DNA of 33,679 bases from positions 1-33,679 of the forward strand of contig CAHJXE010000002.1 in the NCBI GenBank assembly GCA_903644085.1, given 5' to 3'. This DNA comes from Hyphomicrobiales bacterium (GTDB lineage: Bacteria > Pseudomonadota > Alphaproteobacteria > Rhizobiales > Beijerinckiaceae). The position numbers were made by a program, and so were the translations under genes. Below, piece by piece: positions 2,515-29,493 of this stretch. Positions within the stretch are counted from its first letter, which is position 1. Each line of letters begins with the position of its first letter. The notes beneath the pieces were generated by a model. That model worked only from the letters and a program-made list of their open reading frames with translations, did not search any database and was not told the origin of the DNA.

Positions 2515-2539
2515 CGCGTGGCCAGTTCTAGGTCACGCG
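2515..2539 (-). repeat. Hairpin repeat copy A (9-bp stem, 7-nt loop)
   Basis: Read on the minus strand: CGCGTGACC, loop TAGAACT, GGCCACGCG. The arms pair over 9 positions with one mismatched position (A opposite C on this strand, G opposite T on the other). It lies 21 nt upstream of the tail terminator ATG at 2493. The same element occurs at 8839, 14001, 18420 and 22425. No T-tract follows, so it is not a standard intrinsic terminator. Confidence 0.8.
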
Positions 2540-6193: not shown

Positions 6194-7216
6194 TCAGTTG
6201 ACGGGGCCGACCACGTGCACCTTCACGACCGACCGGGGCCGGGCGAAGAAATGGAGGAAGCACGCCTGCACGAGGATCTCCTCGCCCTTGCCGTGCCCGA
6301 GGTCCCGGATCGACGTGTAGAAGTCGAGGATCTGGCCGCGGAACTGCTTCATGTCGCTCGGGCCCGCGATCTCGCGCGCCAGGCCGGGGCCGATCGGCAC
6401 CATGTAGGCGTAGTCGTCGTCGACGAACCCCACCACGTTCCCGTTCGGGAGACGGTGACGCTGGCGTCCGTAGGACACGATGTCGACGTCCTCCTGGATC
6501 GGCACGCCCTTGCGGTTGTCGCGCTGCTGCACGAAGAACCGACCCGCGTTCGTGGTCGCCTCCTTCACCTGCTTGAGGCGGCGAAGACGCTTGCTGGCGT
6601 TCCGGCCCGCGACGACGACGTAACGCTGGGCGTTGAAGCCGCCGAGCTCGTCCTCGATCTCCTCCTTCTGGTCCGTGATCGTCTCGGACAGGTCGAAGCT
6701 CGCCGCGGAGGTGTCCCACTCCTTGACGATCTGCGTCTCGCCGAGGCGCTTGAACACGTCCATCCAGAGCGAGCCGTCGTGGTCGAAGATCTTGCCTTCG
6801 AGCCATCCCTTGCAGCGCTGCCAGGACCTGGTCATCGTGACCGACTGGCCCATGGGCTGGAGGATGATGTTGCGGCGCGTCTCCGCCGAGCGCAGGGCCG
6901 TCGAGCCCGTCTCGCGGACGGCGTCGAGGTTCTCGCGCTCGTAGATCGTGTCCGTGACCTCGTAGACCGGGAGCTTCAGGTCCACGGTGTCGCGCTTGTT
7001 GCGCTGGTTCGGGGTCGGCTCGGCGCCGCGGCCCGAGATGGGGAGCACCTGCACGAAGCCGGTCTCGGTGTCGACCTGGACGCGTTCCGTCATCACCTCG
7101 GACGAGGACGACGGGATGATGTCCTTCAGCCCGTCGTCGACGAAGGGCATCTTGTTGATCGCGTCCGTCATCTCCGGTGCGGAGAACGGATCCTGGGTCA
7201 GAGCGTCACCGGCCAT
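6194..7216 (-). CDS. Major capsid protein (lambda gpE family)
   Basis: A 340-residue protein, the usual length for the gpE family (HK97 fold). Diagnostic segments include DPFSAPEMTDAINKMPFVDD at the N-terminus, LPVYEVTDTIYERENLDAVR, and the C-terminal ILDFYTSIRDLGHGKG. It lies just downstream of the gpD-like decoration protein, as in lambda D-E. It forms the icosahedral shell. The start ATG at 7216 is preceded by CAGGAGAG at proper spacing. I see no anomaly. Confidence 0.9.
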   Translation of the reverse strand: MAGDALTQDPFSAPEMTDAINKMPFVDDGLKDIIPSSSSEVMTERVQVDTETGFVQVLPISGRGAEPTPNQRNKRDTVDLKLPVYEVTDTIYERENLDAVRETGSTALRSAETRRNIILQPMGQSVTMTRSWQRCKGWLEGKIFDHDGSLWMDVFKRLGETQIVKEWDTSAASFDLSETITDQKEEIEDELGGFNAQRYVVVAGRNASKRLRRLKQVKEATTNAGRFFVQQRDNRKGVPIQEDVDIVSYGRQRHRLPNGNVVGFVDDDYAYMVPIGPGLAREIAGPSDMKQFRGQILDFYTSIRDLGHGKGEEILVQACFLHFFARPRSVVKVHVVGPVN

Positions 7217-7691: not shown

Positions 7692-8804
7692 TCAGCGACC
7701 CTGGGCCGCCGCCGCGCGCATGGCGGCGTAGTCGGACCGGGTCTTGAGGACGGTGACCTGGGCGGACGCGGCGACGGTGCCGGAGCGCATTCCGGACACG
7801 CCGGAGATCTCGCCCCCGCCGGTGGCGGTCGCGGCGGTGACGGACGCGCGGAGCTCCGCGATCCCGGCGCCCGTACGGACGAGGATCTCGAACTCGCGGA
7901 CGGCGTCGGCGCCACGGCGACCCGCGACGAAGCGCAGGCCCTCGATGTCGGCGGCGCGCTGTGCCTCGACCGCGGGATCGACCTGCTGCCTGACCTGCTG
8001 GGTCGGGGCGGCCCGCTTAGCGAGGGCCGCCTCCGCGGACGCTAGCGCCGAGCGGGCGGTCTCGACCGCGGCCTGGAGCGCCGTGGCGTCCTCGGTCGTG
8101 GTCGTCGCCGCGACGGTCTCCACGGTCGCCGTCGTCTCCGTCGTGACGGTCTCGACGGAACGCTGGCCGGCGGGCGGTGGGACGATGCGTGCGGTCACGG
8201 GATCTTCTCCGGAGCGGATTCGGGCTGAGGGATCGGCGGGCACCGGCACGAGGCTGGCCTCGCGCGGGCGCCACTTGGTGATGGTGACGAGCGGGACCTG
8301 GCCGTCGCGAAGCGTCAGAACCTCCTCGATGGGGTCGAAGCCGCCGCTGACGGACCGGATGATCCCGTCCTCGATGTCGCGTGCGATGTCGGCGACGTCG
8401 TCACGCCGGGACAGGCGGGCGCGGCAGACGAGGTCGTCCCCTTCGACGGCCGCCGCCTCGATGACGCCCTTGACGCTGCCGATGTCCCAGTAACGGTGGC
8501 TGTCGAGGACCGACGACCCGACGAGCTCGTCGAGGCCGGTGACGCCGGCCATGTCGAGCTTCTCCTCGACCTGCGTGTACTCGGGCCACCGGTCCCCGTC
8601 GTTTAGGATGTAGCGCCAGCCTTTGCACGAGCGGTTCGTGAGGAGCGTGAACTCGAAGGTCATCGCCTTCGGGTCGAAGGACGACGACGCCGGGGCGCCG
8701 TTGGCGGCGGCCCGGGTGCGGATCTCGCCGGGCACGAGGCCACGGGCGCGCACCAAGGAGGGCGCGGTCTCCGTGTTCTCTGTCCTGGCGGCGGCCTGCG
8801 GCAC
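7692..8804 (-). CDS. Prohead protease (U35/HK97-type) fused to scaffold-like C-terminus
   Basis: A 370-residue protein. Residues ~48-220 resemble the U35 (S78) prohead protease: SSVLDSHRYW carries the likely catalytic His, IIRSVSGGFDP the likely Ser, and ITKWRPREASLVPVPADP is a conserved strand. The remainder is Thr/Glu/Ala-rich and helical (ALQAAVETARSALASAEAAL), which fits an internal scaffold removed during maturation. GTG at 8804 was chosen because GGAG lies 7 nt upstream; an ATG at 8663 would remove the unstructured first 47 residues. The start region lies inside an inverted repeat (8793-8842). Pairing a U35 protease with gpD/gpE-type capsid proteins differs from lambda, which uses an S49-type protease. 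Confidence 0.8.
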   Translation of the reverse strand: MPQAAARTENTETAPSLVRARGLVPGEIRTRAAANGAPASSSFDPKAMTFEFTLLTNRSCKGWRYILNDGDRWPEYTQVEEKLDMAGVTGLDELVGSSVLDSHRYWDIGSVKGVIEAAAVEGDDLVCRARLSRRDDVADIARDIEDGIIRSVSGGFDPIEEVLTLRDGQVPLVTITKWRPREASLVPVPADPSARIRSGEDPVTARIVPPPAGQRSVETVTTETTATVETVAATTTTEDATALQAAVETARSALASAEAALAKRAAPTQQVRQQVDPAVEAQRAADIEGLRFVAGRRGADAVREFEILVRTGAGIAELRASVTAATATGGGEISGVSGMRSGTVAASAQVTVLKTRSDYAAMRAAAAQGR

Positions 8805-8842: not shown

Positions 8843-8869
8843 GCGTGGCCAGTTCTAGGTCACGCGGCC
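8839..8869 (-). repeat. Hairpin repeat copy B (12-bp stem, 7-nt loop)
   Basis: The longest copy: minus strand GGCCGCGTGACC, loop TAGAACT, GGCCACGCGGCC. It lies between the portal stop (8913) and the protease start (8804), 34 nt upstream of the latter. It has the same core and loop as copy A but a different outer stem that remains complementary. Confidence 0.85.
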
Positions 8870-8912: not shown

Positions 8913-10547
8913 TCAGGTCCGTTCCGGATCGATGGCGCCGTCCTCGCGGGCGCTCTCCTCGACCACGTCCCGCTCGCGGCGCTCCTCCTCGGTGACTTGC
9001 GCCAGGATCCGCTGCGGGATCTCCCCGGAGGAGTCCCACCGGGCCTTGCCGACCGCGAGGCCGAGGGCCTCCGACCTGGCGGCCGCGCGGGCGGCGAGGC
9101 GGTCCTTGACCTCGGGCTTCACTCCGAAGACGGAGCGGGTGACCGTGTCCGGATCGATGACCTGACTGTCGACGCCCTTCAGGAGTGCGGCCAGCTCCTG
9201 GCTCATCTGGGTGATCTCGGTGATCGGCCATTGCCAGTCGCGCTCGTAGGCCTCCCAGATCGGGCGACCCGGGGGCGGGCGCCACAGGCCCATCGCGAGG
9301 CATCCGTCGACGAAGGCGTCGGCCATGGGATTGAGGAGCTGGTGCTCGTACCGGGCGTGGATCACGTCGCCACGTCGCCGCGTCGACAGGCCGATGTGGC
9401 GCATCGCGCGCTCGGGCGTGCTCTCGTAGTCGCCCGTCATCTCGAAGTACGGCACGCCCTGGCCCGTGCACACGTAGAAGGCGTTGGTCCGTACGGTGAC
9501 GGCGAAGTTCGGGTTGGCCGCGGCCTGGAGGGACCGTGCCTTGAACCCCGGGGGCAGGCGCGCGAAGTTCCCGCCGCCGAGTACGAGCGTCTGGAGCGCC
9601 TCTCGCACCTCCTCGTCCTCGGGGCTGTCGTCCCCGTCGAGCCGGTCCTCCTCGATCATGACCGAGAAGCACGCCGACAGGTTCATCTGCTGCGCGTTGT
9701 TGTCGAGGAACTGCGCATTCTTCAGCGCCATGAGGATCGCCGCGGCCAGGGGCACCTCGGGACGCGGCGCGCCCGTCTGCGCCGGGATGAACAGGTGGTG
9801 GAACTCGTCGGCGGCGACGCGGGTCTGCGTGAGGGGCGTGCCGGGCTGCGTCCGGTCGAGCGGATGCCTCCTGTACGGGTGGTAGGCGACGCGGGACTCG
9901 ATGACGTCGAATTCGATGCCCGAGATCACGCGGTTGCCTCGCGCGACCTCGGCCGTCTCCGTCGTGCCGTCCGAGATCGGCAGGTACGCGGACGGCAGCG
10001 ACTGCCATTGCATCGGGACGAACAGCCCGCGCTCGGGGATGAGGGATCCGTCCCGGCCACGTCGTACGTCGCGACCTCGGCGACGCACACAGGCCTCGCC
10101 GTCGATGGTGAAGTCGCGGTGGACGTCGTCGCGAAGCCACGTCCCGAGGTCGGACACGCCACGCGCGTCGAACCGCCGGGACGCCAGGCAGAACAGGTCG
10201 TCGAGTTCCGGAAAGCGCGACACGGGCACGGGCATGCCGGGAATGAACAGCTCTCCGCTCTTGTCCACGAGCGACCGGATCCAGTTGTCGTTCCGGTACG
10301 CGTGCCTCACGAGACGCTGGCACGGACGCATGAACCGGACGCCGTCGAACGGCCCCAGGTCGGTGACCTGCGGGATCGAGGGCCCGTTCCCCGCGGCGTG
10401 GTATGCGGGCTGGACGCGTCGTCCGCCCCGCTCCCCGGCGAACGGGTCGCCCGGTCCGGCGAAGCGCACGCGCGCGGCGGATCCGGCACGCATCGCGGCG
10501 TCGAAGGCGCGTGCGAGGAGACCGGCCGTCGAATGGGATCGCGCCAT
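8913..10547 (-). CDS. Portal protein (lambda gpB family)
   Basis: A 544-residue protein of the usual portal length. Family-typical features are an N-terminal Ala/Arg helix, the SLVDKSGELF segment, RVISGIEFDVIESRVAYHPY, the FHHLFIPAQTGAPRPEVPLA segment, and DNNAQQMNLSACFSVMIE. It forms the dodecameric ring through which DNA is packaged and to which the tail attaches. It starts 2 nt after the W-position gene and is followed by the protease, matching lambda W-B-C. The C-terminal ~60 residues are Arg/Glu-rich and probably disordered. Confidence 0.9.
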   Translation of the reverse strand: MARSHSTAGLLARAFDAAMRAGSAARVRFAGPGDPFAGERGGRRVQPAYHAAGNGPSIPQVTDLGPFDGVRFMRPCQRLVRHAYRNDNWIRSLVDKSGELFIPGMPVPVSRFPELDDLFCLASRRFDARGVSDLGTWLRDDVHRDFTIDGEACVRRRGRDVRRGRDGSLIPERGLFVPMQWQSLPSAYLPISDGTTETAEVARGNRVISGIEFDVIESRVAYHPYRRHPLDRTQPGTPLTQTRVAADEFHHLFIPAQTGAPRPEVPLAAAILMALKNAQFLDNNAQQMNLSACFSVMIEEDRLDGDDSPEDEEVREALQTLVLGGGNFARLPPGFKARSLQAAANPNFAVTVRTNAFYVCTGQGVPYFEMTGDYESTPERAMRHIGLSTRRRGDVIHARYEHQLLNPMADAFVDGCLAMGLWRPPPGRPIWEAYERDWQWPITEITQMSQELAALLKGVDSQVIDPDTVTRSVFGVKPEVKDRLAARAAARSEALGLAVGKARWDSSGEIPQRILAQVTEEERRERDVVEESAREDGAIDPERT

Positions 10548-10548
10548 C

Positions 10549-10836
10549 TCAGCACCCGTACCCTGCGTCGAACTCGACCCTGACCGTGCCGATGGTCCGG
10601 CGCGGGATCATCGACGTGGGAGCGACCGGCGCGGCCAGGCCGCGGAGCTCCGCCAGCCGGCAGCGTAGGAGATAGATCTTGCGTTCCGTCTCCTTGTCGG
10701 CGCGGATCTGGGCGCCCCCTGTCGGCGTGTTGACCGCCGAGGCGTTGGCGCCGAGCTGCGCCGCGAGGAACGATATGGTCGAGACGCATTCGACCTCGGT
10801 GTACTCGGCGAACGGATTGAAGCCCGGCATCGTCAT
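10549..10836 (-). CDS. Small head-tail joining protein in the gpW position
   Basis: A 95-residue protein (MTMPGFNPFAEYTEVECVST) with two central helices (TISFLAAQLGANASAV and ETERKIYLLRCRLAELRGLA) and a terminal strand pair (TIGTVRVEFDAGYGC). It overlaps the large terminase stop by 4 nt and ends 2 nt before the portal start. This is exactly where lambda W, which stabilises filled heads, lies. It is longer than gpW (about 68 residues) and I see no clear gpW motif, so the function is inferred from position and the helix-helix-strand plan. Confidence 0.6.
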   Translation of the reverse strand: MTMPGFNPFAEYTEVECVSTISFLAAQLGANASAVNTPTGGAQIRADKETERKIYLLRCRLAELRGLAAPVAPTSMIPRRTIGTVRVEFDAGYGC

Positions 10837-13031
10837 CCCCCACGCGCTCCCGATCCGATGGCGCCGTATCGGCGACGCTTGGCCGGGACGGCCTCGACGA
10901 CGGCGTCAGGCGTGATCGTCCGGACGCCGGAGAGCACCCTCACGCCCGGGCGTGCGGGAACCGACGCGACGGCACGCGCCCCACCGTCCGCAGGTGACGA
11001 CGGCGGGCGTGGCTCGTTCAAGGCCACGGGCTCGGCGGACGAGGTGGGTGCGGAGGCGGGCGCCTCCAGCCGGATGGCCACCGCCTCCCGCACGCGACGG
11101 GATTTTGCCTTGTGGAGGCACAGGGCCGCGTAGGCGTAGACGATGCAGTCGAGCGCCTCGTTGGACGTGCCCGGCTTGAGGACGTCCCACCACGTCCGAC
11201 CCTTCTCGTCGACGTGGAGCGTCTCGGCCGTGAGCTGCTCGTACACCTCCATCGGCAACGTCGACGAGAAGTGGACGCTCTCCGCGGCGCCGGGTCTGTA
11301 CCCGAGGCGGCGGAAGATCGTGTCCTTCGCCGATTGGGTGCCGAGGGGCTGGAACTCGAAGCCCGACTTGCTGACGGACGGGCGCCTGGTGATGACGGGC
11401 AGGCGGGATCCGTGGCTCTCGCGACGTCCCTTGACGGGGACGACCTTACGCCTGCGGCTCTCCCGGTGATGGCAGAACGCCAACGCGCGGTTCATGTCGT
11501 AGCCGACGTCGACGGCGACCATCTCCGTCTTAACGACGGTGCCGTCCGCCTTTCGCCACTCGCGGTCGAGCGCCGTCCACACCGCCCGGGCGGCGTCGGG
11601 TGAGAACGGCTCGATCTGCTCCTGCACGACCTCGCCGTCGGCGGTGACGCCCTCGACGCCGTCGATCACGGTCCGGTCGAGGATCCACGACTCCTCGCCG
11701 GGGCCGTAGGCGACGGTATAGATCTCGTGGCGGGGCAGGCCGTTCCGCCCGCCCTCCTGAGTGTCGATCCCCTTGTAGAGGCCGAGCGCCGCGTCCGGGA
11801 CGAAACCCGCGAGATCCTCGGCGCGCTCGGACAGTTTGTGGGGGTCGAGCGTCCCGACCCCCTCGACCTTCCAAGGTCGCGCCCGCGTCAGGTTCATGAA
11901 GGGCTGACGCTGCTCGGGATCCTTCCGCTGCGCCACGTCGTCCCGGGCGATGTGGAGCCACGTCGACTGCGGGTCCGTCGAGTACGCCGCCCACGCCCAG
12001 ATCGACGCATGGTCCGGGTCGGACGGTTTCGGGTTCTGCGGGACGAGGACGCCCGTCTCCATCATGTCGACCTTGGAGGTCTCCTCGATGGCGCCGCCGC
12101 AATGGGCGCACTCGTACCATGCGTCGTCCGGACGTCCCGTGACCTCGTCGCACGTGTACCTGAGGCCCTTGCCGAGACGGACGTGCCGGCCCTCGACCTG
12201 TTGGATGTCGTCGTGGAACTCCTGCGGCTCGTCCGGGCAGCACGGAGACCTCATCATGAAGAGGCTCTGGTCGCCCTTCTCCCATTCCTCGGACGTCAGG
12301 CACGCGCCGACGACGGTCGGGGTGCCGGCCACGTAGACGATCGGGTCGAAGAACTCCTGGGCTCGCTTCAGGATGAGCGCCAGCTTCGACCCCTCGCCCT
12401 TCTCGCCCGTCGTGCCCTCCTGGTATTCCTTGGACGACGGCTCGTCGACGCCGATGAACAGCCCCTTGATGCCCCGCATCGACCCGTTGGTCGTGACGCT
12501 GCGGAGCTGGATCGAGGCTCCCGTCGTCAGGATCCGGTCCGACCACGCGTCCTGCACGCCGGACCGCGTGTCCGGACGGATCAGGTGAGCGACGTCGGGG
12601 CTCTCCAACAGGATCGGGTAAAGCTTCTTGTCGTGGAAGTCCTGCGCGTCACCCTGGGTCCGCTCGTAGAACAGGACGTCAACGCCGAGGTGGCCGGCGT
12701 GGTAGATGAGCCCGACCACCATGATGAGCGTCGACCCGAAGCGGGGCGGCTTGAGGAACGTGACCCGGCGCTTCGTCGCCCATAGGCGGGCGATGGCGGC
12801 CTGGAGCGGCGACATGATGAGAGGCCCGGACCGTTGCGACTGCGCGGCCGGCATGCGGAGCATCTCGCGGGCCCACCCCGGGATGTCGACCGGGGCGTTC
12901 GGCACGAGGTTGTGTGCCGCCGTCACGATACCGGCCTCGAACAGGACGAACCCGAGGGCGGTCAGATCCTGGTAGGCCTCGTCGACGAGCGGGTCGCCGA
13001 CCGGGACCGGCGGGAGGACGAGTTCGGTCAT
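10833..13031 (-). CDS. Terminase large subunit (GpA family)
   Basis: A 732-residue protein, about the length of lambda gpA and its relatives. It is the ATPase and nuclease that packages DNA into the prohead. Visible elements: an adenine-binding/Walker A region at VTFLKPPRFGSTLIMVVGLI, a Walker B-like GLFIGVDEPS, and a CPDEPQ...YTCDE...CAHCGG zinc-binding cluster. The nuclease part has YKGIDTQEGG, MVAVDVGYDMNRALAF and the late NEALDCIVYAYAAL. ATG at 13031 was chosen because it sits 3 nt after the small-subunit stop; upstream in-frame sequence is shadow of that gene. The Walker A loop ends RFGST where relatives usually have GKT. The C-terminal ~110 residues are a Pro/Ala-rich tail, probably contacting the portal. 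Confidence 0.9.
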   Translation of the reverse strand: MTELVLPPVPVGDPLVDEAYQDLTALGFVLFEAGIVTAAHNLVPNAPVDIPGWAREMLRMPAAQSQRSGPLIMSPLQAAIARLWATKRRVTFLKPPRFGSTLIMVVGLIYHAGHLGVDVLFYERTQGDAQDFHDKKLYPILLESPDVAHLIRPDTRSGVQDAWSDRILTTGASIQLRSVTTNGSMRGIKGLFIGVDEPSSKEYQEGTTGEKGEGSKLALILKRAQEFFDPIVYVAGTPTVVGACLTSEEWEKGDQSLFMMRSPCCPDEPQEFHDDIQQVEGRHVRLGKGLRYTCDEVTGRPDDAWYECAHCGGAIEETSKVDMMETGVLVPQNPKPSDPDHASIWAWAAYSTDPQSTWLHIARDDVAQRKDPEQRQPFMNLTRARPWKVEGVGTLDPHKLSERAEDLAGFVPDAALGLYKGIDTQEGGRNGLPRHEIYTVAYGPGEESWILDRTVIDGVEGVTADGEVVQEQIEPFSPDAARAVWTALDREWRKADGTVVKTEMVAVDVGYDMNRALAFCHHRESRRRKVVPVKGRRESHGSRLPVITRRPSVSKSGFEFQPLGTQSAKDTIFRRLGYRPGAAESVHFSSTLPMEVYEQLTAETLHVDEKGRTWWDVLKPGTSNEALDCIVYAYAALCLHKAKSRRVREAVAIRLEAPASAPTSSAEPVALNEPRPPSSPADGGARAVASVPARPGVRVLSGVRTITPDAVVEAVPAKRRRYGAIGSGARGG

Positions 13032-13033
13032 GG

Positions 13034-13639
13034 TCAGGCGGTGTCGCGAGCCGCCGTATCGGGGGCGACGGGTTTGGGCGACGTCCTCTCCTCCTCGGAC
13101 GCGGCCGCCTCCGCCGCCTGACGGATGGCGTTCGCCGCATCGGCGAGGGCCTCCATGCAATAGTCGCGTGCCTGGCGTCGCCATGCGGCGACCCGGTCCG
13201 GGGGAAAGCCCGCCATGTCGCGGGCGATCCGGTCGGGGACGGCCATCACGGCTTGCCGCACGAGGCCGAACGCACGTTCCATCGCCGCCTGCATCGGGGC
13301 GCGGTGGACGAGCGCGCGCTCGCTTTCGCCCATGGACACCCACTTGGCGCGCGCCATGATCGCCTTGTAGCTGTCGGTGATCCCCATGAACTGGAAGGCG
13401 CCTTCCGAGGTGGCCTTCAACGCGCTCTCGGCGGAGGCCTGCTTCTCGCGCCACTCGACGAACTCGCGCACCGAGATCTGGTACTCGACGCCGTGGCGAC
13501 CGCCCCGGACGACGGGCATCCGCTTCTTCGTGATCCAGTCGGAGATGGTGCCGCGGTGGTAGCCGGTGAGGTCCGCGAGGTCGGTCAGGCTGACGACGCG
13601 CCCGACGGGGACGTCCGCTGGGAGGCCGTCGTCAGCCAC
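13034..13639 (-). CDS. Terminase small subunit (Nu1-like)
   Basis: A 201-residue protein with an N-terminal winged-helix/HTH (SLTDLADLTGYHRGTISDWI, then TKKRMPVVRGG) that matches the Nu1-type DNA-binding domain recognising cos. It is followed by a helical body (MQAAMERAFGLVRQAV) and a charged Ala/Glu tail. It lies directly upstream of the large subunit, the standard order in lambda-like phages. This makes the adjoining upstream DNA (13640-14000) the likely cos region. Confidence 0.8.
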   Translation of the reverse strand: MADDGLPADVPVGRVVSLTDLADLTGYHRGTISDWITKKRMPVVRGGRHGVEYQISVREFVEWREKQASAESALKATSEGAFQFMGITDSYKAIMARAKWVSMGESERALVHRAPMQAAMERAFGLVRQAVMAVPDRIARDMAGFPPDRVAAWRRQARDYCMEALADAANAIRQAAEAAASEEERTSPKPVAPDTAARDTA

Positions 13640-14000: not shown

Positions 14001-14027
14001 CGCCGTGGCCGGTTCTAGGTCACGGCG
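14001..14027 (-). repeat. Hairpin repeat copy C (10-bp stem, 7-nt loop)
   Basis: Minus strand: CGCCGTGACC, loop TAGAACC, GGCCACGGCG. It lies between the divergent terminase small subunit gene (361 nt away) and the plus-strand gene that starts at 14079 (51 nt away). Core and loop match copies A, B and E; the outer CGCC/GGCG pair is different but complementary. Confidence 0.85.
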
Positions 14028-15948: not shown

Positions 15949-17235
15949 CTATACCGCTTTCGGAGGTGGTGGAGCCGGTGGCGGTCCCGGTCGGTAACGC
16001 GGTGCCGGTGGCGGACCGTCGTTCGATACCGGCTTGCCGTATCGAGACGCGTTCTGCTCACAATGGGTTCGAACGACGTCCACCCATCGGTCGTACCAAG
16101 CCCAGTCGCCTTGCCCCTTGCCGTACACGGAGACACCGAAACCCTTGCCGGGGTTGCGGGCGTCCATGCTTTGCCAAAGGCGTGTGTGATGGGCGGTGTT
16201 GAAGGATCGGTAGCCCTCCCGGTGCATCTTCGTCACGATCTGCCCGGGCAACCACTTCTTCTTCTCGGTCTCCTTCAGGATGAGGTCCGCGACCTGTTTC
16301 GCGTCGTCCGAGCCCGGCTGCACCAGCCTGTAGGCGACGTCGGCTTGGTTGACGCGGTTCACCGTGATCGGGACCAAGGCGACGCGGAAGGCGAACCTGG
16401 TGTCCTTGGCCTCTTCCTCGGACAGATGGTCGTGGAACGCGTCCATCATCGCGGAGACGTTCGGTGGCAAGCCTCCGGCGCGTTTGAGGATCTCCTGATG
16501 GTCCGGGCTGAAGGTGACGAACTGCAGGGCGATGGGCAGGCGTCTTTCCAGCCCGAACTGCTCCCCGAAGTGACCCTTGATCGCGTCGTTGAAGTTGATG
16601 GCGCACGACTGGAGCTGCGCCGAGACGGCGTCGTCGATCCGGTTGGTAGACCTGTGCTCGATTTCGTGCCGAAGCCCCAGGACGAATTCCAGGTTCGACT
16701 TGACCGCCTTGTCGAGAGGGCACCTGTTCGAGCGAACGCACTTGCCGAGCTCCCAATAGCGCTCTGCGCCCCGCTCGGTCTTGTCCGCCTCGGGATCTGA
16801 CTGACGGTACCGGTAATCGACGCCCTCGCGTTTGTAGAAGGCGTGATGGAGGTAGGTCCACGCGATGACGGCCGTCACGATGAAGAGCTCCGCCCGGAAA
16901 TGGAGGCCGGCGCCGTTGAACGTATGAACCGCCGCGATCATCGCCTCGCGGGCCTTGATGAGGAGCTCGTCGCCGCGGAGGCTCAACCCGGTCGTGTGGT
17001 CGATCTCGGGCCAGGAGGCCAGGAACGCCGACAGGTCGTCCTGGGAGGCGGCGGGCACGGCCGTGTGCTTCGTGCCCGTCCTGATCTCGATGATGGCACG
17101 ATGGTTCACCGACCGCGTCGGACGCGTGAAGTAGGCTAGGATGTCCTGGTCCGTCCGGCCGCCGCGGTCCAGCAAGGCCTTGACCATGCCGGCCTCCCAA
17201 GGTTCCAACTTGTTCCCGGGACGTCTGACCCGCAC
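15949..17235 (-). CDS. DUF3644-type protein with HEPN-like R-x4-H motif; candidate abortive-infection RNase
   Basis: A 428-residue soluble protein. Residues ~10-55 are a small DNA-binding-like domain (GRTDQDILAYFTRPTRSVNH). Residues ~85-330 match DUF3644 as I know it: LHFRAELFIVTAVIAWTYLH, CPLDKAVKSNLEFVLGLRHE, and ALVPITVNRVNQADVAYRLV. RHEIEH at 189-194 fits the R-x4-6-H active-site motif of HEPN ribonucleases, and DUF3644 is, to my knowledge, in the HEPN-type group. HEPN proteins often act in toxin-antitoxin, abortive infection and RNA-cleaving defence. The C-terminus is a Pro-rich tail (PAPRYRPGPPPAPPPPKAV). GTG at 17235 is preceded by GGGAGG. No antitoxin partner is evident; the nearest gene is a divergent zinc ribbon. 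Domain call fairly sure; defence role inferred. Confidence 0.75.
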   Translation of the reverse strand: MRVRRPGNKLEPWEAGMVKALLDRGGRTDQDILAYFTRPTRSVNHRAIIEIRTGTKHTAVPAASQDDLSAFLASWPEIDHTTGLSLRGDELLIKAREAMIAAVHTFNGAGLHFRAELFIVTAVIAWTYLHHAFYKREGVDYRYRQSDPEADKTERGAERYWELGKCVRSNRCPLDKAVKSNLEFVLGLRHEIEHRSTNRIDDAVSAQLQSCAINFNDAIKGHFGEQFGLERRLPIALQFVTFSPDHQEILKRAGGLPPNVSAMMDAFHDHLSEEEAKDTRFAFRVALVPITVNRVNQADVAYRLVQPGSDDAKQVADLILKETEKKKWLPGQIVTKMHREGYRSFNTAHHTRLWQSMDARNPGKGFGVSVYGKGQGDWAWYDRWVDVVRTHCEQNASRYGKPVSNDGPPPAPRYRPGPPPAPPPPKAV

Positions 17236-17571: not shown

Positions 17572-18396
17572 TCAACGCATGCGGCCCTGTCGGGCCTGGT
17601 AGGCGACCGCGTCCGCGAGCTCTGCCGCCATGATGCCCGGGATCCTCTTGATACCCTCCTCCTGGAGGCGGACCCAATAGGGCTGGAGGACGGGCGTGTA
17701 CCTCGCCCGGTCGACGGCGAAGAAGAGGATCCGAGGCAGGTCCGAGTTGACCGTGTACGGGACCGCCCGCTGACCCCTCTGCGAGGCGAACACGGTGGTG
17801 CCGCCGACCCTGGCCCGGACACGTGGCGGCCTGGCGATGTAGGCGAGGACGGGCGAGCCCTTCACGTTGATCATGCCTTTCCAGACGCCCCACCGCGACG
17901 GTGTCGACCTCGTGTACGTCTCGGCGTCACGGGCGATGGACGCGAGGGCGCCGGACGGCAGGTTGCCATAGGAGTTCGCGCGGACACCCCGGGCGTGGGC
18001 GAGGTTCTTGAAGTTCGGGATCAGGATCTTGTCGCGGGCCGGCCCGACGTCGCCGGGGAGACGTTCGTTCTCGCCGGTCTCTCCCATGAGGTACTTGAGG
18101 ACGATGCTCTGGTCGGGCAACGCGTAGACGTCGGACGCGACCCCGTCCGCGAGGGTCTTCGCCTTCCCCAAGCTACGGGTGTACTGGAACGCCCTCGCCG
18201 TCCACGGGGTGGGGTTGTCGAGGGCTTCGCCCATGGCCTCGCGCATGCCGACCGCGATGCCCTTCACGATCTCGTCCACGGTCCATGTCGCCGCCCGCTC
18301 GAACCGCTTGTGGGTCGACGGACCGATGAAGGCGGCCTCCCAGGCCTTGAGTTGGTCGCTGAGGTCGGAAAGCGTCTTGACGTCGAAGCCGGGCAT
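17572..18396 (-). CDS. Conserved phage virion-type protein, function unknown
   Basis: A 274-residue protein. It carries the pattern DNPTPWTARAFQYTRSLGKA followed later by KNLAHARGVRANSYGNLPSG, which I recognise from a widespread prophage family with a D-x-PTP-[WFY]-T motif near virion genes but with no established role. Other parts are helical at the N-terminus (THKRFERAATWTVDEIVKGI) and strand-rich in the C-terminal half (RILFFAVDRARYTPVLQPYW). It lies well outside the main late operon, behind the accessory genes. Hairpin copy D is 23 nt upstream of its ATG, as copy A is for the tail terminator. Confidence 0.6.
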   Translation of the reverse strand: MPGFDVKTLSDLSDQLKAWEAAFIGPSTHKRFERAATWTVDEIVKGIAVGMREAMGEALDNPTPWTARAFQYTRSLGKAKTLADGVASDVYALPDQSIVLKYLMGETGENERLPGDVGPARDKILIPNFKNLAHARGVRANSYGNLPSGALASIARDAETYTRSTPSRWGVWKGMINVKGSPVLAYIARPPRVRARVGGTTVFASQRGQRAVPYTVNSDLPRILFFAVDRARYTPVLQPYWVRLQEEGIKRIPGIMAAELADAVAYQARQGRMR

Positions 18397-18419: not shown

Positions 18420-18440
18420 CGTGGCCGGGGACAGGTCACG
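18420..18440 (-). repeat. Hairpin repeat copy D (7-bp stem, 7-nt loop, divergent loop)
   Basis: Minus strand: CGTGACC, loop TGTCCCC, GGCCACG. The stem core and the odd A-C position are identical to the other copies and the loop is again 7 nt, but the loop sequence differs. It lies 23 nt upstream of the ATG at 18396. Confidence 0.65.
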
Positions 18441-18568: not shown

Positions 18569-20248
18569 TCAGGCGATCAGACCCGCCTTTCGCCTCGCGA
18601 AATCGGAGGCGAATAACTCGATCTCCCACGACTGTCGCCAGCACCTGATCGCCTCCGTGACCGAGCACCCGCCCGCGACGAGTTCGACGAGAACCTCACG
18701 GCATCGGGTCTCGTACCGCGCCAGGTCGCCGGGCCTGACGAACGCTCGCGGCGAAGGCAGGGGCATCGTCGCGACGTCGACGAGCTGACGCCCACGTCGG
18801 GGCTTGCGTGGCCTGACGGGCTTGTGGGCACCTCCGGGGCTGACCTCGGACGAATGGGCTGATGTGCGTTCGAACCGGTCCTCGGGGCAGGGCGGGGTGT
18901 CTAGGCAAGCCACCGGCGGGACGACAAGTGACAGGACCTCGGTTTCACCATTGCAAGGAAGGGTGTCCGGGACAGGAGAGCCGAGGTGTCCGAGAGGGCA
19001 GGAAGAGAGGGCGGAAGGCGCACCGAATACCATATGTAAGTCGCGATTGAGGTAAGTCCTTACCCGACAAGAGGAAATTCCGTTAAACTCGTCCTCGCAT
19101 TTCGAGGTCATGATGGACCCCATCTCGGCCTCGTCGGACGCCTTCGCGACGAACGAATCGTGCACTGGGAGAACCGGCATCGCGCGGGCCTCGCACTCAA
19201 GCAGCACCCGCGTCGCGATACGGCCGTCGATAGCCATGAGGCGGACGCCCTCGTCCGCTCCGAACGAAGACGCGACCGGAGCGTGGCGCGCCTTCACGGC
19301 TTCGTAGACCTCCCTTGCGTATCCCCATTCGCATCCGAGCTTCTCGACCAAGGCCCCGAGTGCCGCGCGGTCCGTCTCCGCGTTGATGCCGATGACGAAT
19401 GCGGCCTTGGCGTGATCGCGATGGATGCCCCCGCCGACATCGTACGCGTCGCCCTCGAACCGCAGCCCAGCCCTCGCGTAGACGATGAAGGCGTGAAGGC
19501 TCTCGAAATCGGGCTCGGCCACGGGAGACCCGTCAAGTAGCATCTGAGACCGGTAGGACTTCGGGACCGCCTGCCACCATCCGTACAGTCGGCCTCCCAT
19601 GGTCCACGAGCCGCGGTTGAATATGCGGCGTACGCCCGCGTCGTGGGGAGTGACAACGACCTCGCCCCTCGTCCCCTGCATCACGAGGTGATCGCCGCGG
19701 ACCTGCGCGCCCGGGATCTGGACCTGCTGGCGCCGCAGGTGGGAGTTGATGCGGAGAACCTCCGCCCGCATCCGGTCGGTCCGCTGGGTGTCCCGATAGT
19801 CGACGTCGCACCCGTCTCCGTTCCGCAAGACGACGAGCCCGTTGTCCGGGAGGCCGTACCGAGTTCGGACGCCGGACATGGCGTCCATGAGCTCGGGCGT
19901 CGCCGTGAACGTGCTCTGCAACCCGGTCGTCAGGTGGGCACCCTGGCGGGCCCGTAGTCCAGTCAACCACGGTGTCTCGGCGACGAGGTGGTCCACGAGG
20001 CCAGTGACGTTGCGGTAGGTGAAGCCCTCGCCCTCGTAGCGCTCTCGCCCCGCGTACCAAGCGCGGTTGCGGGAATAGGAGACCCGGCGGTCGACCATGC
20101 CGGCCAAGTATGCCGACGTCAGGATCCGGTCCCGGACCCTGGCGATCTCGTCCGACGCGGGAGGTAGCCGGAGGCGGGCGAGCGCATCCGGGCCGACGTA
20201 CCGTCTCCCGGAGAGCGGCATGTCGATGTGACGGTGTTCTGGACGCAC
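18569..20248 (-). CDS. Polymerase-like protein with family A / T7-RNAP-type palm motifs
   Basis: A 559-residue protein. Residues ~235-390 read like a single-subunit polymerase palm. Motif A-like EPDFESLHAFIVYA (245-258) has a candidate catalytic Asp at 247. Motif B-like HRDHAKAAFVIGINA (276-290) has a Lys at 281. LPVHDSFVAKASD (360-372) carries the HD-S of motif C, where family A DNA polymerases have HDE and T7-type RNA polymerases HDS. The first ~210 residues have no exonuclease motifs that I see. The C-terminal ~150 residues are a Cys/Pro/Arg-rich linker plus a short helical domain (CSVTEAIRCWRQSWEIELFA). It lies across a control region from a RuvC-like gene. Start is GTG 20248 or ATG 20221. 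It could be a replication polymerase, primase or RNA polymerase, or inactive. Confidence 0.6.
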   Translation of the reverse strand: MRPEHRHIDMPLSGRRYVGPDALARLRLPPASDEIARVRDRILTSAYLAGMVDRRVSYSRNRAWYAGRERYEGEGFTYRNVTGLVDHLVAETPWLTGLRARQGAHLTTGLQSTFTATPELMDAMSGVRTRYGLPDNGLVVLRNGDGCDVDYRDTQRTDRMRAEVLRINSHLRRQQVQIPGAQVRGDHLVMQGTRGEVVVTPHDAGVRRIFNRGSWTMGGRLYGWWQAVPKSYRSQMLLDGSPVAEPDFESLHAFIVYARAGLRFEGDAYDVGGGIHRDHAKAAFVIGINAETDRAALGALVEKLGCEWGYAREVYEAVKARHAPVASSFGADEGVRLMAIDGRIATRVLLECEARAMPVLPVHDSFVAKASDEAEMGSIMTSKCEDEFNGISSCRVRTYLNRDLHMVFGAPSALSSCPLGHLGSPVPDTLPCNGETEVLSLVVPPVACLDTPPCPEDRFERTSAHSSEVSPGGAHKPVRPRKPRRGRQLVDVATMPLPSPRAFVRPGDLARYETRCREVLVELVAGGCSVTEAIRCWRQSWEIELFASDFARRKAGLIA

Positions 20249-20750
20249 CTGGCGCGATCCCCGGACCTGAGCCCGCCGACGCCCGGAGTACCCCTACCCG
20301 AACCGGCGACCGGCAAGGCTGCCCCTGGCCGACGCATAATTCCAGAGCTGTCCCAAACACTTACCGGGGGCGGTCAAAGGGCTCGAAGGCCCTGCCGACG
20401 CCGGGAGGGGGTACCCCCTGGGGGTCGGCCTCCATGAGAAATCGTTTCCAGCCATGGTTTCTCCATGACCTTTCGCGAGCACGTCATTTTTGGTCGCGAG
20501 GGCTCGACGGGTCGTAGGATGCCTCCAGGCGATTTTACGGGGGCATGGTTGCGACGACGCCTCTGGCCGGAGGTATGCGCCAGACGCATGTGTTGCCCCA
20601 TGGAGGTCCACCGGGCGGTTCGACGGTCTCCATGAAAAACATGGCTCACGCGTACGATTTCTTGACCTGACATGCCGTCGGCTGACCGCGAGGGGGACGA
20701 CTTCGGCCTGTCCAGGTGTCCCTCGCCGCGTGCGGGGTCAGGCTTCTTGG
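20249..20750. other. Divergent intergenic control region with repeats; possible replication origin or operator region
   Basis: I see no convincing gene in this ~500-bp stretch between the polymerase-like gene and the resolvase-like gene. It contains CTCCATGA at 20430-20437, 20461-20468 and 20628-20635, and an inverted CATGGAG at 20599-20605. A perfect palindrome GGGGGTACCCCC lies at 20407-20418. Runs of A/T (around 20438-20443, 20483-20491, 20635-20639) stand out in GC-rich DNA. TTGACC at 20662 could be a -35 box toward the plus-strand genes, but no good -10 is visible. Confidence 0.4.
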
Positions 20751-21284
20751 ATGCCCGATTCGTTTTCCGGCCCCCGCATCCTCGCGCTCGACCTCGCCAC
20801 CCTGGCCGGCGCCGCCTGGCGCGTGGACGGTGTCTTCGCGACGCGTGCCGTCGACTTCCGGGCCGTCGCCCGCATTGGGCTCAAGAGCCCGCCATCGAAC
20901 GGTGCGCTCCTCGACGCCGCCCTGTTCTCGATCTCCTCGCTGGCCCACGACATCTCCCCCACCGTCTTCGCCGTCGAGCGTGACACGGGCCGCGGCGCGG
21001 GGACCGAGCTCCTGAGGGGTTACCTGGCCGTCGCATCGATAGTCGCCGCTCGGCACCGGGCCGAGCTCGTGACCATGAGCGCCGTCGAGGTCCGCAAGGT
21101 CGTCCTCGGCGACGGGTCGCTGAGCAAGGTCGACGCCGCCCGTCAGGCGGTCGCGTACGGGCTCGTCCCGGACGGCCTCTCCGGAGACGAGGTCGACGCC
21201 GTCCTGCTGCTGCTCGCGGTCGAGGGGAGGCGGCGGGCGGCCTCCCTCACGCGCGCGCACGTGAAGAGGAAGAGGGCCGCATGA
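20751..21284 (+). CDS. RuvC-like Holliday junction resolvase / RNase H-fold nuclease
   Basis: A 177-residue protein starting MPDSFSGPRILALDLATLAG. The first strand carries the Asp of an RNase H-fold (LALDLAT), the next acidic position is FAVERDTGRG, and the C-terminal GLSGDEVDAVLLLLAVE supplies the last catalytic Asp pair on a helix. This is the arrangement of RuvC-type resolvases used by phages to debranch DNA before packaging. A basic C-terminus (RAHVKRKRAA) may bind DNA. It overlaps the next gene by 4 nt and is the first of a long plus-strand operon. Confidence 0.75.
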   Translation: MPDSFSGPRILALDLATLAGAAWRVDGVFATRAVDFRAVARIGLKSPPSNGALLDAALFSISSLAHDISPTVFAVERDTGRGAGTELLRGYLAVASIVAARHRAELVTMSAVEVRKVVLGDGSLSKVDAARQAVAYGLVPDGLSGDEVDAVLLLLAVEGRRRAASLTRAHVKRKRAA

Positions 21285-21777: not shown

Positions 21778-22151
21778 TGACGCAAGCCGAGCACGTCGTG
21801 GCGTTGTGGAAGGGCGGCATCCGCGACCGCGCGGCCATCGCGGCCGCGACGGGGGCGACCCCAATCTACATCAGGTGCGCGCTGAGCCGGGCCAAGATCA
21901 CGCGGCGCAAGCGCAAGGCCTCGCCTCCGCCCGGTACGGTCGTCACCTCGGACCGTCGGGAGGACATCCTGGCGGCGTGGGCCGAAGGAATGGACCTCGC
22001 GGACATCGCGCTCGTGACGGGTCTCAAGCGCGGCACGGTCAACATGACGATCCAGCGGGCCCGTGAACAAGGCGACCCCCGGGCGGGGAACCGCAAAGCC
22101 CTTCGGCGCGCCCGTGACCTGGAACCGGCAACGCGAGAGAGGGAAGCTTGA
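21777..22151 (+). CDS. Helix-turn-helix protein, putative phage regulator
   Basis: A 124-residue protein with two similar HTH-like halves: residues ~15-38 (GIRDRAAIAAATGATPIYIR) and ~65-92 (GMDLADIALVTGLKRGTVNM), separated by a basic linker (KITRRKRKASPPPG). The repeated alternation of AI/DI, ATG/VTG and a variable recognition helix fits two tandem DNA-binding domains. It lies in a dense plus-strand operon before the lysis genes and could be an activator or repressor of that operon. No cofactor-binding part is present. Confidence 0.6.
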   Translation: MTQAEHVVALWKGGIRDRAAIAAATGATPIYIRCALSRAKITRRKRKASPPPGTVVTSDRREDILAAWAEGMDLADIALVTGLKRGTVNMTIQRAREQGDPRAGNRKALRRARDLEPATREREA

Positions 22152-22155
22152 CGCC

Positions 22156-22437
22156 ATGGAAACCTTCATCGCCCTCACGTGGCCCGACGTCGGCCTCGAC
22201 GCCTGGCACCAGATCTTGATCGTGGCGATCCTCGCGCGTGGGGTGGCGTACGACACCGGCAGCGTCGACCGCGTCGTCACGTCCGGCATGATCGCATGGG
22301 TCGTCCTGCCGCCGCCTCTCGACTGGACGGTCGCCATCGTCGTCCTGCCGTTCGCCTGCTGGTCCTTGTGGACGTCCTGGCGAGCGACCTGGCGAGCGTT
22401 CTTCCACCGACCTGCACCTGATGACCCCGTGACCTAG
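22156..22437 (+). CDS. Small membrane protein
   Basis: A 93-residue protein with two or three hydrophobic segments (WHQILIVAILARGVAYD, VTSGMIAWVVLPPPL, WTVAIVVLPFACWSLWTSW) and a basic/aromatic tail. Its TAG stop (22435-22437) forms the beginning of the loop of hairpin copy E. It is encoded directly before the holin. A role in lysis timing or membrane modification is possible, but no family is recognised. Confidence 0.6.
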   Translation: METFIALTWPDVGLDAWHQILIVAILARGVAYDTGSVDRVVTSGMIAWVVLPPPLDWTVAIVVLPFACWSLWTSWRATWRAFFHRPAPDDPVT

Positions 22438-22451
22438 AACCGGCCACGGGG
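22425..22451 (+). repeat. Hairpin repeat copy E (10-bp stem, 7-nt loop)
   Basis: Plus strand: CCCCGTGACC, loop TAGAACC, GGCCACGGGG. It is in the same orientation relative to transcription as copies A, B and D, which lie on minus-strand operons. The loop TAG is the stop codon of the upstream gene. The hairpin ends 19 nt before the holin ATG. Confidence 0.85.
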
Positions 22452-22470
22452 CCGGTGGTCGTCTCGGGCC

Positions 22471-22707
22471 ATGAGACTCGTCGACAACTGGCGCCGCGTG
22501 CTGAAGCACGCTTGGTCGATCCGCCTCGGCCTCCTTTCCGCCGCCCTCGGTGCCGCCGAGGTCGGCGTCAACCTTCTGTCCAGCGACCCGCCGATCCCGC
22601 GGGGGACCTTCGTCGCAATCGCGTCCGCGGTCTCGCTGGCGTCCGCCGTCTCCCGCCTAGTCGCGCAGACGGCGGTATCCGGGCCCGCGCCGGAGGGCGA
22701 CCGGTGA
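22471..22707 (+). CDS. Holin
   Basis: A 78-residue protein with two membrane helices (LGLLSAALGAAEVGVNLL and FVAIASAVSLASAVSRLV) separated by a short polar turn with prolines. A basic N-terminus (MRLVDNWRRVLKHAW) and charged tail complete a class II holin layout. It is followed, with overlapping stop and start, by the endolysin gene, the standard lysis cassette order. Its product would form the inner-membrane lesion that triggers lysis. Hairpin copy E lies just upstream, with only a weak Shine-Dalgarno between. Confidence 0.75.
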   Translation: MRLVDNWRRVLKHAWSIRLGLLSAALGAAEVGVNLLSSDPPIPRGTFVAIASAVSLASAVSRLVAQTAVSGPAPEGDR

Positions 22708-23255
22708 CGTTCCTCGCCCGCCTTCTTCGCCGCCCGGCCGCGGCGGCTCCCGTACCCGTCGCGACGCCGGTCGCCCCTCGACCGTCCGGCTCACGCATGC
22801 GGCGCAACTCGGCGCTCGCGGCGGCCTGTGTCACTTGCGTCGCCGGGTTTGAAGGCCTGCGCCTGAACGCCTACCCCGATCCGGCGACCGGCCGCGAGCC
22901 CTGGACCGCCTGTTACGGCGAGACGGAGGGCGTCACGAGAGGCGAGAGGTTCACCCTCGCCCAGTGCAAGGCGATGCTGGCCGCGTCGCTGGAGAGCTTC
23001 GCGACCGGCATGGAAGGATGCATCACCCGCCCGCTGCCCGACACGACCTACTCGGCCTTCCTCTCGCTCTCGTACAACGTCGGCACGGGCGCGTTCTGCA
23101 AGTCGTCCGTCGCTCGTCTCTGGAATGCCGGCGAAGGTCGTTCGTCCTGCGACGCGATGCTCAAGTGGAACCGCGCCGCCGGGGTCGTCATGACGGGGTT
23201 GACCCGGCGGCGCGAGCAAGAACGCGCCCTGTGCCTGCAGGGCCTCGCACAATGA
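22704..23255 (+). CDS. Endolysin, GH24 phage lysozyme (R21/T4 type)
   Basis: A 183-residue peptidoglycan muramidase. The catalytic Glu is in AGFEGLRLNAYPD, with the conserved Asp 9 residues on, and Thr-Ala-Cys in PWTACYGETEG follows after a 3-residue insertion compared with R21. FLSLSYNVGTGAFCKSSV and TGLTRRREQERALC are further family signatures. The first ~50 residues are basic then Ala/Pro-rich, with a weakly hydrophobic NSALAAACVTCVAG before the active site; a signal-anchor-release function is uncertain. The GTG at 22704 overlaps the holin stop. It acts in the periplasm after holin opening. Confidence 0.88.
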   Translation: MTFLARLLRRPAAAAPVPVATPVAPRPSGSRMRRNSALAAACVTCVAGFEGLRLNAYPDPATGREPWTACYGETEGVTRGERFTLAQCKAMLAASLESFATGMEGCITRPLPDTTYSAFLSLSYNVGTGAFCKSSVARLWNAGEGRSSCDAMLKWNRAAGVVMTGLTRRREQERALCLQGLAQ

Positions 23256-29178: not shown

Positions 29179-29493
29179 TCAGGGCGCCTCGGGATCGAGG
29201 ACACGAAGGTCGACGTCCATGCCGAGTACCTCACGGACTTGATCGCCGAGGACCGCGATCCGGCTCTCGATGACGTCTCGGGTCTCCCCGGGGTCGACGG
29301 TGAGCGTCGCCTTCAGGATCGGCGTCCGCCACAGGGCGAGAGGAAGGCTCGCCTCGATCTTGATCGCGCGCTCGGCCGCAGTCTGCCCGGGCTCGCCGCG
29401 CACGAGGCGTACGCCGCCGTCGCGGGAGAACACGAGCCACAGGTCGAACACGAGCGCGTCGCCCGACCTTCGTGTGTGACGTCCGAGGTTCAT
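29179..29493 (-). CDS. Small mobilization-operon protein, unknown
   Basis: A 104-residue protein starting MNLGRHTRRSGDALVFDLWL. It alternates strands (LVFSRDGGVRLVRGEP) and helices (ETRDVIESRIAVLGDQVREV) and ends with a strand (DVDLRVLDPEAP). ATG at 29493 overlaps the MobC-like stop by 4 nt (ATGA), with AGGTGG upstream; the longer in-frame upstream part is an Arg/Pro-rich shadow. No family is recognised. Confidence 0.55.
   Translation of the reverse strand: MNLGRHTRRSGDALVFDLWLVFSRDGGVRLVRGEPGQTAAERAIKIEASLPLALWRTPILKATLTVDPGETRDVIESRIAVLGDQVREVLGMDVDLRVLDPEAP

Follow-up and report, generated by a model that had tools for sequence, protein, structure and literature searches.

The question raised by this locus is what a small polymerase-like protein contributes to the bacterial virus that encodes it. 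The window, by which we mean the whole stretch of 33,679 bases analysed here, is one entire contig (CAHJXE010000002.1) of a Hyphomicrobiales genome of 3.2 Mb in 398 contigs, estimated to be about 86% complete, and the host is a Methylobacterium relative whose genome carries a bacterial virus with a polymerase gene. This gene, an open reading frame (ORF) of 559 amino acids with a GTG start, occupies positions 18569..20248 of the minus strand (stop codon at 18569-18571), and its product is almost certainly an A-family palm polymerase of the divPolA2 type. The initial annotation had suspected a poorly described phage or plasmid polymerase lineage; the protein is indeed poorly characterised and stands in a phage setting, but it does not represent a new lineage, since it is a member of divPolA2, already in print, and a relative of the TV-Pols. 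New here are the predicted winged helix of the N-terminal domain, the replacement of the residues that select the sugar in Pol I, and the union of divPolA2 with a resolvase-linked chromosomal family.

The reading frame is real: the plus strand of the interval contains stops, the minus strand is a single 559-residue frame, and its GC content by codon position (0.68/0.51/0.81) is a coding signal normal for the contig. The palm/fingers core spans residues ~207-404 (19037..19630) and carries motif A with Asp247 in EPDFESLH (19508..19510), motif B R277xxxK281 (19406..19420), which falls in helix 277-289 of the structure model, and motif C His363-Asp364-Ser365 (19154..19162); the initial annotation had numbered these residues correctly. 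In an alignment of 29 rows with the window protein among them (A4), D247, H252, K281, H363 and D364 are identical throughout, as are R220 (on strand 218-222 of the model) and R233, while S365 is found in 28 rows, R277 and N289 in 27 each, and position 285 is L, M or V. Both gaps at R277 belong to Methylobacterium relatives (L022/L122) in which the Arg lies one residue closer to the Lys, and a further relative (L024) has Lys in place of R277. The two catalytic Asp are kept in all 29 rows and also in all 13 rows of a second alignment (A1), made of the window protein and 12 phage members.

By motif spacing, we take H252 to correspond to E710 in Pol I and to G542 in T7 RNA polymerase (RNAP), V285 to F762 of Pol I, and N289 to Y766 of Pol I and Y639 of T7 RNAP. 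On this correspondence, the sugar-selecting residues of Pol I are replaced in the window protein (H252, V285, N289). Among 19 chromosomal relatives read by eye, the H252 position holds His in 2, Phe in 10, other residues in 7 and Glu in none. Since the ribose filter of Pol I is gone, and the Tyr of RNAPs is mostly gone as well in the 29-row alignment, the choice of sugar cannot be read from the sequence.

An AlphaFold2 (AF2) model of the full protein, built on an input alignment of 29 sequences, reached a mean predicted local distance difference test (pLDDT) score of 73.9, and within it residues 211-390 form a confident palm/fingers core (pLDDT 88-98 by 10-residue block). A missing palm fold, which the initial annotation had named as a refutation of its proposal, is thus not what the model shows; the predicted core superposes on Pol I as well as on single-subunit RNAPs, with tied VIA-align Z scores for Bst Pol I (13.8), yeast mitochondrial RNAP (mtRNAP; 13.6), T7 RNAP (13.5) and T7 DNA polymerase (DNAP; 13.2), so that the modelled fold is shared with both kinds of enzyme. 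The HDS form, which the initial annotation had likened to single-subunit RNAPs, does not identify an RNAP here: besides the equal structural distance, the third letter of motif C varies within the family (HDS 4, HDA 8 and HDG 8 in 20 chromosomal rows), and the divPolA2 representative AUR84708 (L018) carries FDE. In the model a long helix (155-172) lies ahead of the palm, and no antiparallel pair of helices, the thumb described for TV-Pols, was identified; no exonuclease family was matched in the Pfam and PHROG searches, in agreement with the initial annotation. Its Cys/Pro-rich tail is likewise real. This C-terminal extension (residues 405-559; 18572..19036) is mostly disordered in the model apart from two terminal helices, residues 401-490 having a pLDDT of 28-52 by block. 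The 12 further phage members in A1 lack a tail of such length, two of them having short ones (L012, L017), and a long tail recurs in a Methylobacterium relative (L022).

Ahead of the palm, residues ~20-131 (19856..20191) form a separate domain, seen when residues 20-178 were folded alone (pLDDT 77.4). Nearly all of its best 50 VIA matches are, to judge by their names, winged-helix proteins, with MarR, PadR, HxlR, ArsR and Fur family members, Orc1, ribosomal S10e and chains of Wadjet JetABC among the matches. A TrmB regulator in profile searches that used sequence only (E 0.61 and 0.05) is faint support at most. With moderate confidence we therefore read residues 20-131 of the model as a winged helix, which would probably bind DNA.

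Sequence relatives of the protein occur in phages. It matches phrog_4756 ('unknown function') at E 4.3e-29, and it gave no match in Pfam (up to E 10), NCBIfam or PDB sequences. By tblastn 42 phage records were found, mostly large Vibrio and Aeromonas phages (about 21-27% identity among the 40 listed), and one match (MG592441.1, E 3e-5) covers AUR84708, which is the modelled divPolA2 representative; identity to the 12 aligned phage members is 16-24%. In BFVD, 11 matches at E<=1.1e-16, including the 'DNA polymerase' of Rheinheimera phage Barba31A (1.1e-19) and proteins of Aeromonas phages, are followed by a gap to E 2.3e-6, after which several proteins are named PolA. No relative emerged when viral and genome contigs were scanned with the window protein as the sole query. 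The profile check against PF00476 and PF00940 that the initial annotation had called for brought little: the window protein matches neither, and among the 29 family members PF00940 was touched by a single one (E 0.057) and PF00476 by none at 0.1. Against the PDB, the A1 profile met yeast mtRNAP at E 0.059 with the motifs in register, but an unrelated match was better (0.014); profiles A4 and A5 gave mostly implausible matches (RSV fusion protein, SKP1), and hhalign comparisons of A4 with T7 RNAP and with T7 DNAP were not significant. From Pol I the window protein thus differs in lacking the PF00476 match and an exonuclease, in HDS instead of HDE, and in H252 instead of E710; from T7 RNAP it differs in lacking the PF00940 match and, by motif spacing, in N289 at Y639 and H252 at G542.

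Relatives also reside in chromosomes. Of 297 genomes sampled from the order, 25 (8%, own genome counted) encode one, and all nine that were scanned match phrog_4756; one genome of the same family as the source genome (G125) encodes a relative that Methylobacterium sp. 10 and M. bullatum share in identical form. In a tree of 53 rows, with the window protein trimmed to its first 470 residues, the protein joins the Methylobacterium relatives (99/94) and then a viral contig (98/90), and a set of 24 rows contains it together with all 20 chromosomal rows (98/95); many branches are long. Fifteen chromosomal regions of 9.5-39 kb were compared by neighbour clusters: a serine resolvase cluster occurs in 10, an integrase cluster in 8, and a conserved unnamed gene in 8, in 4 of which it precedes the polymerase by at most 100 nt. 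PF00239 was confirmed on the single resolvase tested, and PF00589 scored above cut-off on one of two integrases (the other 22.1 vs 27.1). Because of these resolvase and integrase neighbours, the phrog_4756 matches and the tree, we treat divPolA2 and the chromosomal family as one group, and the joined group probably corresponds to the TV-Pols, a link that we draw from features and neighbourhoods.

DivPolA2 was first found in 110 barbaviruses, and the section devoted to it describes a palm with neither a homologous thumb nor an exonuclease, an N-terminal domain that resembles nothing known, a 'variable gene neighborhood' and, in some phages, paralogue pairs (Virology Journal 2024, PMC11348598). 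A pair of this kind (L135, L143) is also present in the viral contig IMGVR_UViG_3300032080_000003. The window protein shares with the published description the palm motifs, the lack of an exonuclease and a globular N-terminal domain ahead of the palm. It differs in its long disordered extension and in its place in the tree, beside the Methylobacterium relatives and on the chromosomal side, and the published divPolA2 section (PMC11348598) does not read the N-terminal domain as a winged helix. Barbaviruses are described there as keeping a regular DNA polymerase alongside; on the window contig, which at 33.7 kb is incomplete, no second DNA polymerase was seen.

TV-Pols have been described from resolvase/integrase neighbourhoods of mobile elements and with a linkage to D5 helicases (Iyer, Abhiman and Aravind 2008, PMC2579912). 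With the features given there the window protein shares two catalytic Asp, a conserved Arg on a beta-hairpin before motif A, the RxxxK of the first fingers helix and no visible fusion to a nuclease, and its chromosomal relatives in the same bacterial order have the resolvase and integrase neighbours. L022/L122 and L024 depart from this RxxxK, and no D5 helicase, resolvase or integrase was found among the window ORFs scanned. The TV-Pol source Ma-LMM01 was not among the hits of the window-protein searches. CcPol of staphylococcal cassette elements, classed as a TV-Pol by the same authors (PMC2579912), performs de novo DNA priming with its partner MP, as published (PMC7581432, PMC10061031). Like the window protein, it is a small A-family polymerase of a mobile element. 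CcPol retains the equivalents of E710 and F762 (PMC7581432, PMC10061031), in contrast to H252 and V285 here, a comparison made by description. No MP-like OB-fold partner was recognised in the window, where the small neighbouring ORFs were not folded.

We favour priming and DNA synthesis because of the TV-Pol setting and, by analogy, the published biochemistry of CcPol-MP. The winged helix might anchor the enzyme to phage DNA or to specific sites in that DNA; the palm would then synthesise short template-directed strands at that place, and the protein, as a primase-polymerase, would start or patch phage DNA synthesis with a relaxed choice of sugar. We infer catalytic activity, priming, site binding and sugar relaxation alike. 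The complete statement, an exonuclease-less winged-helix palm polymerase of divPolA2/TV-Pol kin that acts as a primase-polymerase on phage DNA, is an evenly balanced proposal.

The contig itself offers a candidate for such sites. A hairpin-shaped 21-mer, CGTGACCTAGAACYGGCCACG, is present in four exact copies: E1 (2517..2537, minus strand), 23 nt before the ATG at 2493 of a 155-residue ORF ahead of the major tail protein match; E2 (8844..8864, minus), 39 nt before the GTG at 8804 of the head protease gene; E3 (14004..14024, minus), whose distance to the small terminase ORF downstream is 364 nt, with no start codon at the fixed spacing; and E4 (22428..22448, plus), 22 nt before the ATG at 22471 of a 78-residue ORF ahead of the endolysin match. 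E5 (22113..22133, plus; two mismatches) lies 22 nt before the ATG at 22156, and E7 (18420..18440, minus; four mismatches), between the polymerase and the tail gene, lies 23 nt before the ATG at 18396; no element stands directly upstream of the polymerase itself. A seventh place, E6 (11008-11028), scores as E7 does and was left out because it lies within the terminase gene and no start follows it. The observed scores (21, 21, 21, 21, 19, 17, 17) compare with a best of 17/21 in shuffled sequence, reached in 2 of 20 shuffles. Each of E1, E4, E5 and E7 is followed, 22-23 nt after its end, by an ATG starting a frame of at least 60 codons, against a background of 618 in 67118 positions, the spacing having been seen first and tested afterwards.

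The stems of the exact copies extend by 2 to 9 outer pairs, at least 2 pairs being available at 16% of random positions, and the outer bases change on both sides and still pair (the first outer pair is G-C in E1/E2 and C-G in E3/E4); the stems of E5 and E7 do not extend. Folded as DNA, the template strand gives -10.6 to -15.2 and the non-template strand -8.4 to -13.4 kcal/mol, a G.T pair in the template-strand hairpin being an A.C mismatch in the sense strand. Elsewhere in the genome the inner 19 bases have just one weaker copy at up to 2 mismatches, on the same contig. The exact core is absent from the viral contigs scanned; a shortened 15-mer met 29 viral contigs, one match each, which we took as chance. 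Among 397 genomes of the family, 37 (own included) have any match at up to 2 mismatches and no other genome has more than 2 matches. The element was not found in the Methylobacterium sp. Leaf91 prophage; the two places of that genome that fit the stem pattern lie elsewhere. Without a repeated set in relatives, footprinting is therefore not possible.

In hairpin form the element resembles the promoters of the N4 virion RNAP (vRNAP), described as a conserved heptamer flanked by inverted repeats whose variable bases must just keep the hairpin (PMC4496689). In being associated with starts it resembles the start-associated sequences SAS/ESAS of cluster K mycobacteriophages, which typically lie 3-7 bp from starts, among non-structural genes. 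A regulator binding site or an mRNA element is equally open as an alternative to a promoter, and a connection of element and polymerase is a candidate only.

Repeated words were also sought in related phages as 18-mers with up to 3 mismatches, a search that is weak against hairpin promoters with variable stems. Two phages with a polymerase relative carry words containing TTGACA: HNL01 in 10 places, one of them 55 nt upstream of the large-terminase operon, and M1 in 5. TTGACA is a sigma70 -35 box, and these words can be read as promoters. HNL01 has in addition seven places with TTTTGTAATGTGAACTAG, for which we have no explanation; six of these lie between leftward genes at 2.5-8.3 kb. Other intergenic repeat families of this phage, of 6 places, are likewise unexplained. 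In the same Vibrio phage (L012, L117, L118) AATGAGAATCATTATCAA is present in 9 places within 3 mismatches and resembles a Fur box. A first pass over 17-41 kb pieces of six phages gave one promoter-associated word, in HNL01, with TTGACA/TAATACT-like boxes beside 2 of its 5 places, plus terminator-like repeats. No clear phage promoter emerged, not even in KASIA, whose annotation includes an RNAP of its own, so that this pass has little power.

A further clue comes from gene order. Within the window a leftward block begins with the polymerase and continues with minor tail protein, DUF3644 gene, terminase and head genes; from the polymerase to the small terminase gene (TerS) the distance is 4.9 kb. 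The Leaf91 prophage, which carries the nearest polymerase relative, has the order polymerase, 156-residue ORF, ParB-like gene, TerS and large terminase (TerL), with 1.8 kb to TerS; the minor tail family shared with the window follows TerL on the other strand. Leaf91 TerL is of the GpA type fused to an S49 head protease (L122:14090-17056, plus strand). Twelve phage records were searched and distances worked out by hand: of the 11 with a terminase match, 6 have the large terminase gene on the polymerase strand no more than 15 kb downstream (2 only if circular). Of 38 IMG/VR loci 33 were searched and 22 matched phrog_2; 16 with an open frame of at least 430 amino acids were kept (G683, G684, G691, G693, G698 and G710, with shorter frames, were dropped), and 9 of these show the arrangement (1 only if circular). 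As the records are related, and 5 of 11 and 7 of 16 do not fit, we regard terminase proximity as a tendency.

These observations allow four readings, which we rank as primase-polymerase, late or repair DNA polymerase, RNA polymerase and dead regulator, in falling order of probability. Several points tell against the primase-polymerase. Foldseek gave no match for the N-terminal domain at E<=0.001, and the winged-helix match is only moderate (Z 5.9-7.9 for the best 50 VIA rows). The gene lies upstream of a terminase in about half of the records and not evidently among replication genes. On the window contig no helicase or single-stranded DNA-binding partner was recognised, and the helicase-primase context of TV-Pols is absent, though the contig ends within tail genes; a Walker A pattern, [AG]x4GK[ST], occurs in none of 41 ORFs, a weak test that missed the large terminase too. 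CcPol keeps the residues lost here and is therefore no close model, and no divPolA2 protein is known to us to have shown activity. A late-acting or repair DNA polymerase, without primase function and serving gap filling, end processing or recombination-coupled synthesis before packaging, is a smaller yet appreciable possibility. Repair is one of two roles, beside that of an RNAP, between which the 2024 divPolA2 section does not decide (PMC11348598), and a separate replicative polymerase is kept by several large phages, namely barbaviruses (same section) and, by annotation, KASIA and M1. The downstream terminase of the surveyed records, of the window and of Leaf91 fits such late action, but the exceptions counted above fall among records that are not independent, and terminase proximity is weak evidence of function.

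Slightly less probable again is a single-subunit RNAP of late genes for which the 21-nt elements would be template-strand hairpin promoters in the style of N4 vRNAP. Motif C reads HDSF as in T7 RNAP (aligned, not significant), the ribose-excluding E710 and F762 of Pol I are missing, the modelled structure is as near to mtRNAP and T7 RNAP as to Pol I, and an RNAP role is the other of the two options in print. Moreover, four exact and two weaker elements stand ahead of head, tail, terminase and lysis ORFs in the sense of the downstream genes, the stems of the exact copies stay paired where bases change, the template strand folds as DNA, and the 22-23 nt spacing recurs in E1, E4, E5 and E7. This reading led after the discovery of the elements and was lowered after the TTGACA-type words of HNL01 and M1, although these do not exclude it and HNL01 has unexplained repeats. 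Chromosomal relatives mostly adjoin resolvase or integrase genes, the Tyr at Y639 of T7 RNAP is Asn here, the link between element and protein is conjectural, and E2 and E3 break the spacing rule. Its most specific form we consider improbable: divPolA2/TV-Pols would be winged-helix polymerases that read sites, and the window protein a new kind of minimal phage RNAP (559 amino acids, core ~400) starting late transcription at extruded hairpins ~22 nt before the start codons of late genes, with the N4-type hairpin promoter invented independently. Very unlikely, finally, is a catalytically dead palm protein retained as a DNA-binding regulator: the sugar-selection positions are unusual, the N-terminal domain looks like a DNA-binding one, and some Pol components of mobile elements may be vestigial, in the words of the PolA-SSB primase work on this point (PMC7581432/PMC10061031), but both catalytic Asp are kept in every row of A4 and A1, and the window protein retains R277xxxK281.

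The left and middle part of the contig is a tailed phage with head, tail and terminase genes on the minus strand and an endolysin on the plus strand. Its left end breaks off within tail genes, so that the lack of other replication genes on the contig is weak evidence. Next downstream of the polymerase is a minor tail protein (phrog_1924; 17572..18396, minus), a homologue of which is also close to the polymerase in Methylobacterium loci. It is followed on the minus strand by the terminase small subunit (phrog_57; 13034..13639), the terminase large subunit (phrog_15; 10833..13454), the portal protein (phrog_21; 8913..10547), the head maturation protease/head protein (7692..8804) and the major head protein (phrog_29; 6194..7216), and further matches on this strand are to head closure and tail proteins, including the major tail protein. 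The endolysin ORF (22455..23255, plus) matches phrog_7 over residues 118-264. A DUF3644 protein (15949-17235, minus; E 2.6e-51) sits within the late arm, and a GIY-YIG-like gene (3001-3882, plus; just under cut-off), opposite in strand to the leftward late genes around it, is perhaps a homing endonuclease. Divergent from the polymerase, the gene at 20490-21284 (plus) shows RNase H/RuvC-like motifs by eye and gave no informative library or PDB sequence match; repeats in the interval 20200-20560 amount to two imperfect direct pairs, of 17 and 12 nt, with no inverted repeat. The replication clue that the initial annotation had seen in a RuvC-like neighbour across a repeat region is accordingly weak.

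From ~25.4 kb rightward mobilisation-type genes follow, among them a relaxase (27267-28535, minus; PF03432 above cut-off), a NikA/MobC-like protein (29490-30026, minus; below cut-off) and, at the right end, DUF736 (32587-32904, minus). This end is plasmid-like or resembles an integrative and conjugative element, and the contig may join a prophage and a mobilisable element. A phrog_30306 protein (30965-31942, plus) has a counterpart in Pseudomonas phage AUS531phi at 57% identity over 99%. Megablast of window positions 1-25000 against phages gave no match, and the major head protein has only remote matches, present in 13 of the 198 other family genomes searched; no close relative of the phage was therefore found.

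A better knowledge of this polymerase is of interest beyond the single locus, since the job of divPolA2, DNA repair polymerase or RNA polymerase, is a question left open in the published section on these proteins (PMC11348598). The phage described here gives two handles on it, a modelled winged helix and a candidate site family on the same contig. Uniting divPolA2 with the resolvase-linked chromosomal family places the group in 25 of 297 genomes (8%) sampled from one bacterial order. Action at the element would make the polymerase a very small phage RNA polymerase with hairpin promoters; priming of DNA would make it a tailed-phage primase outside the DnaG and AEP families.

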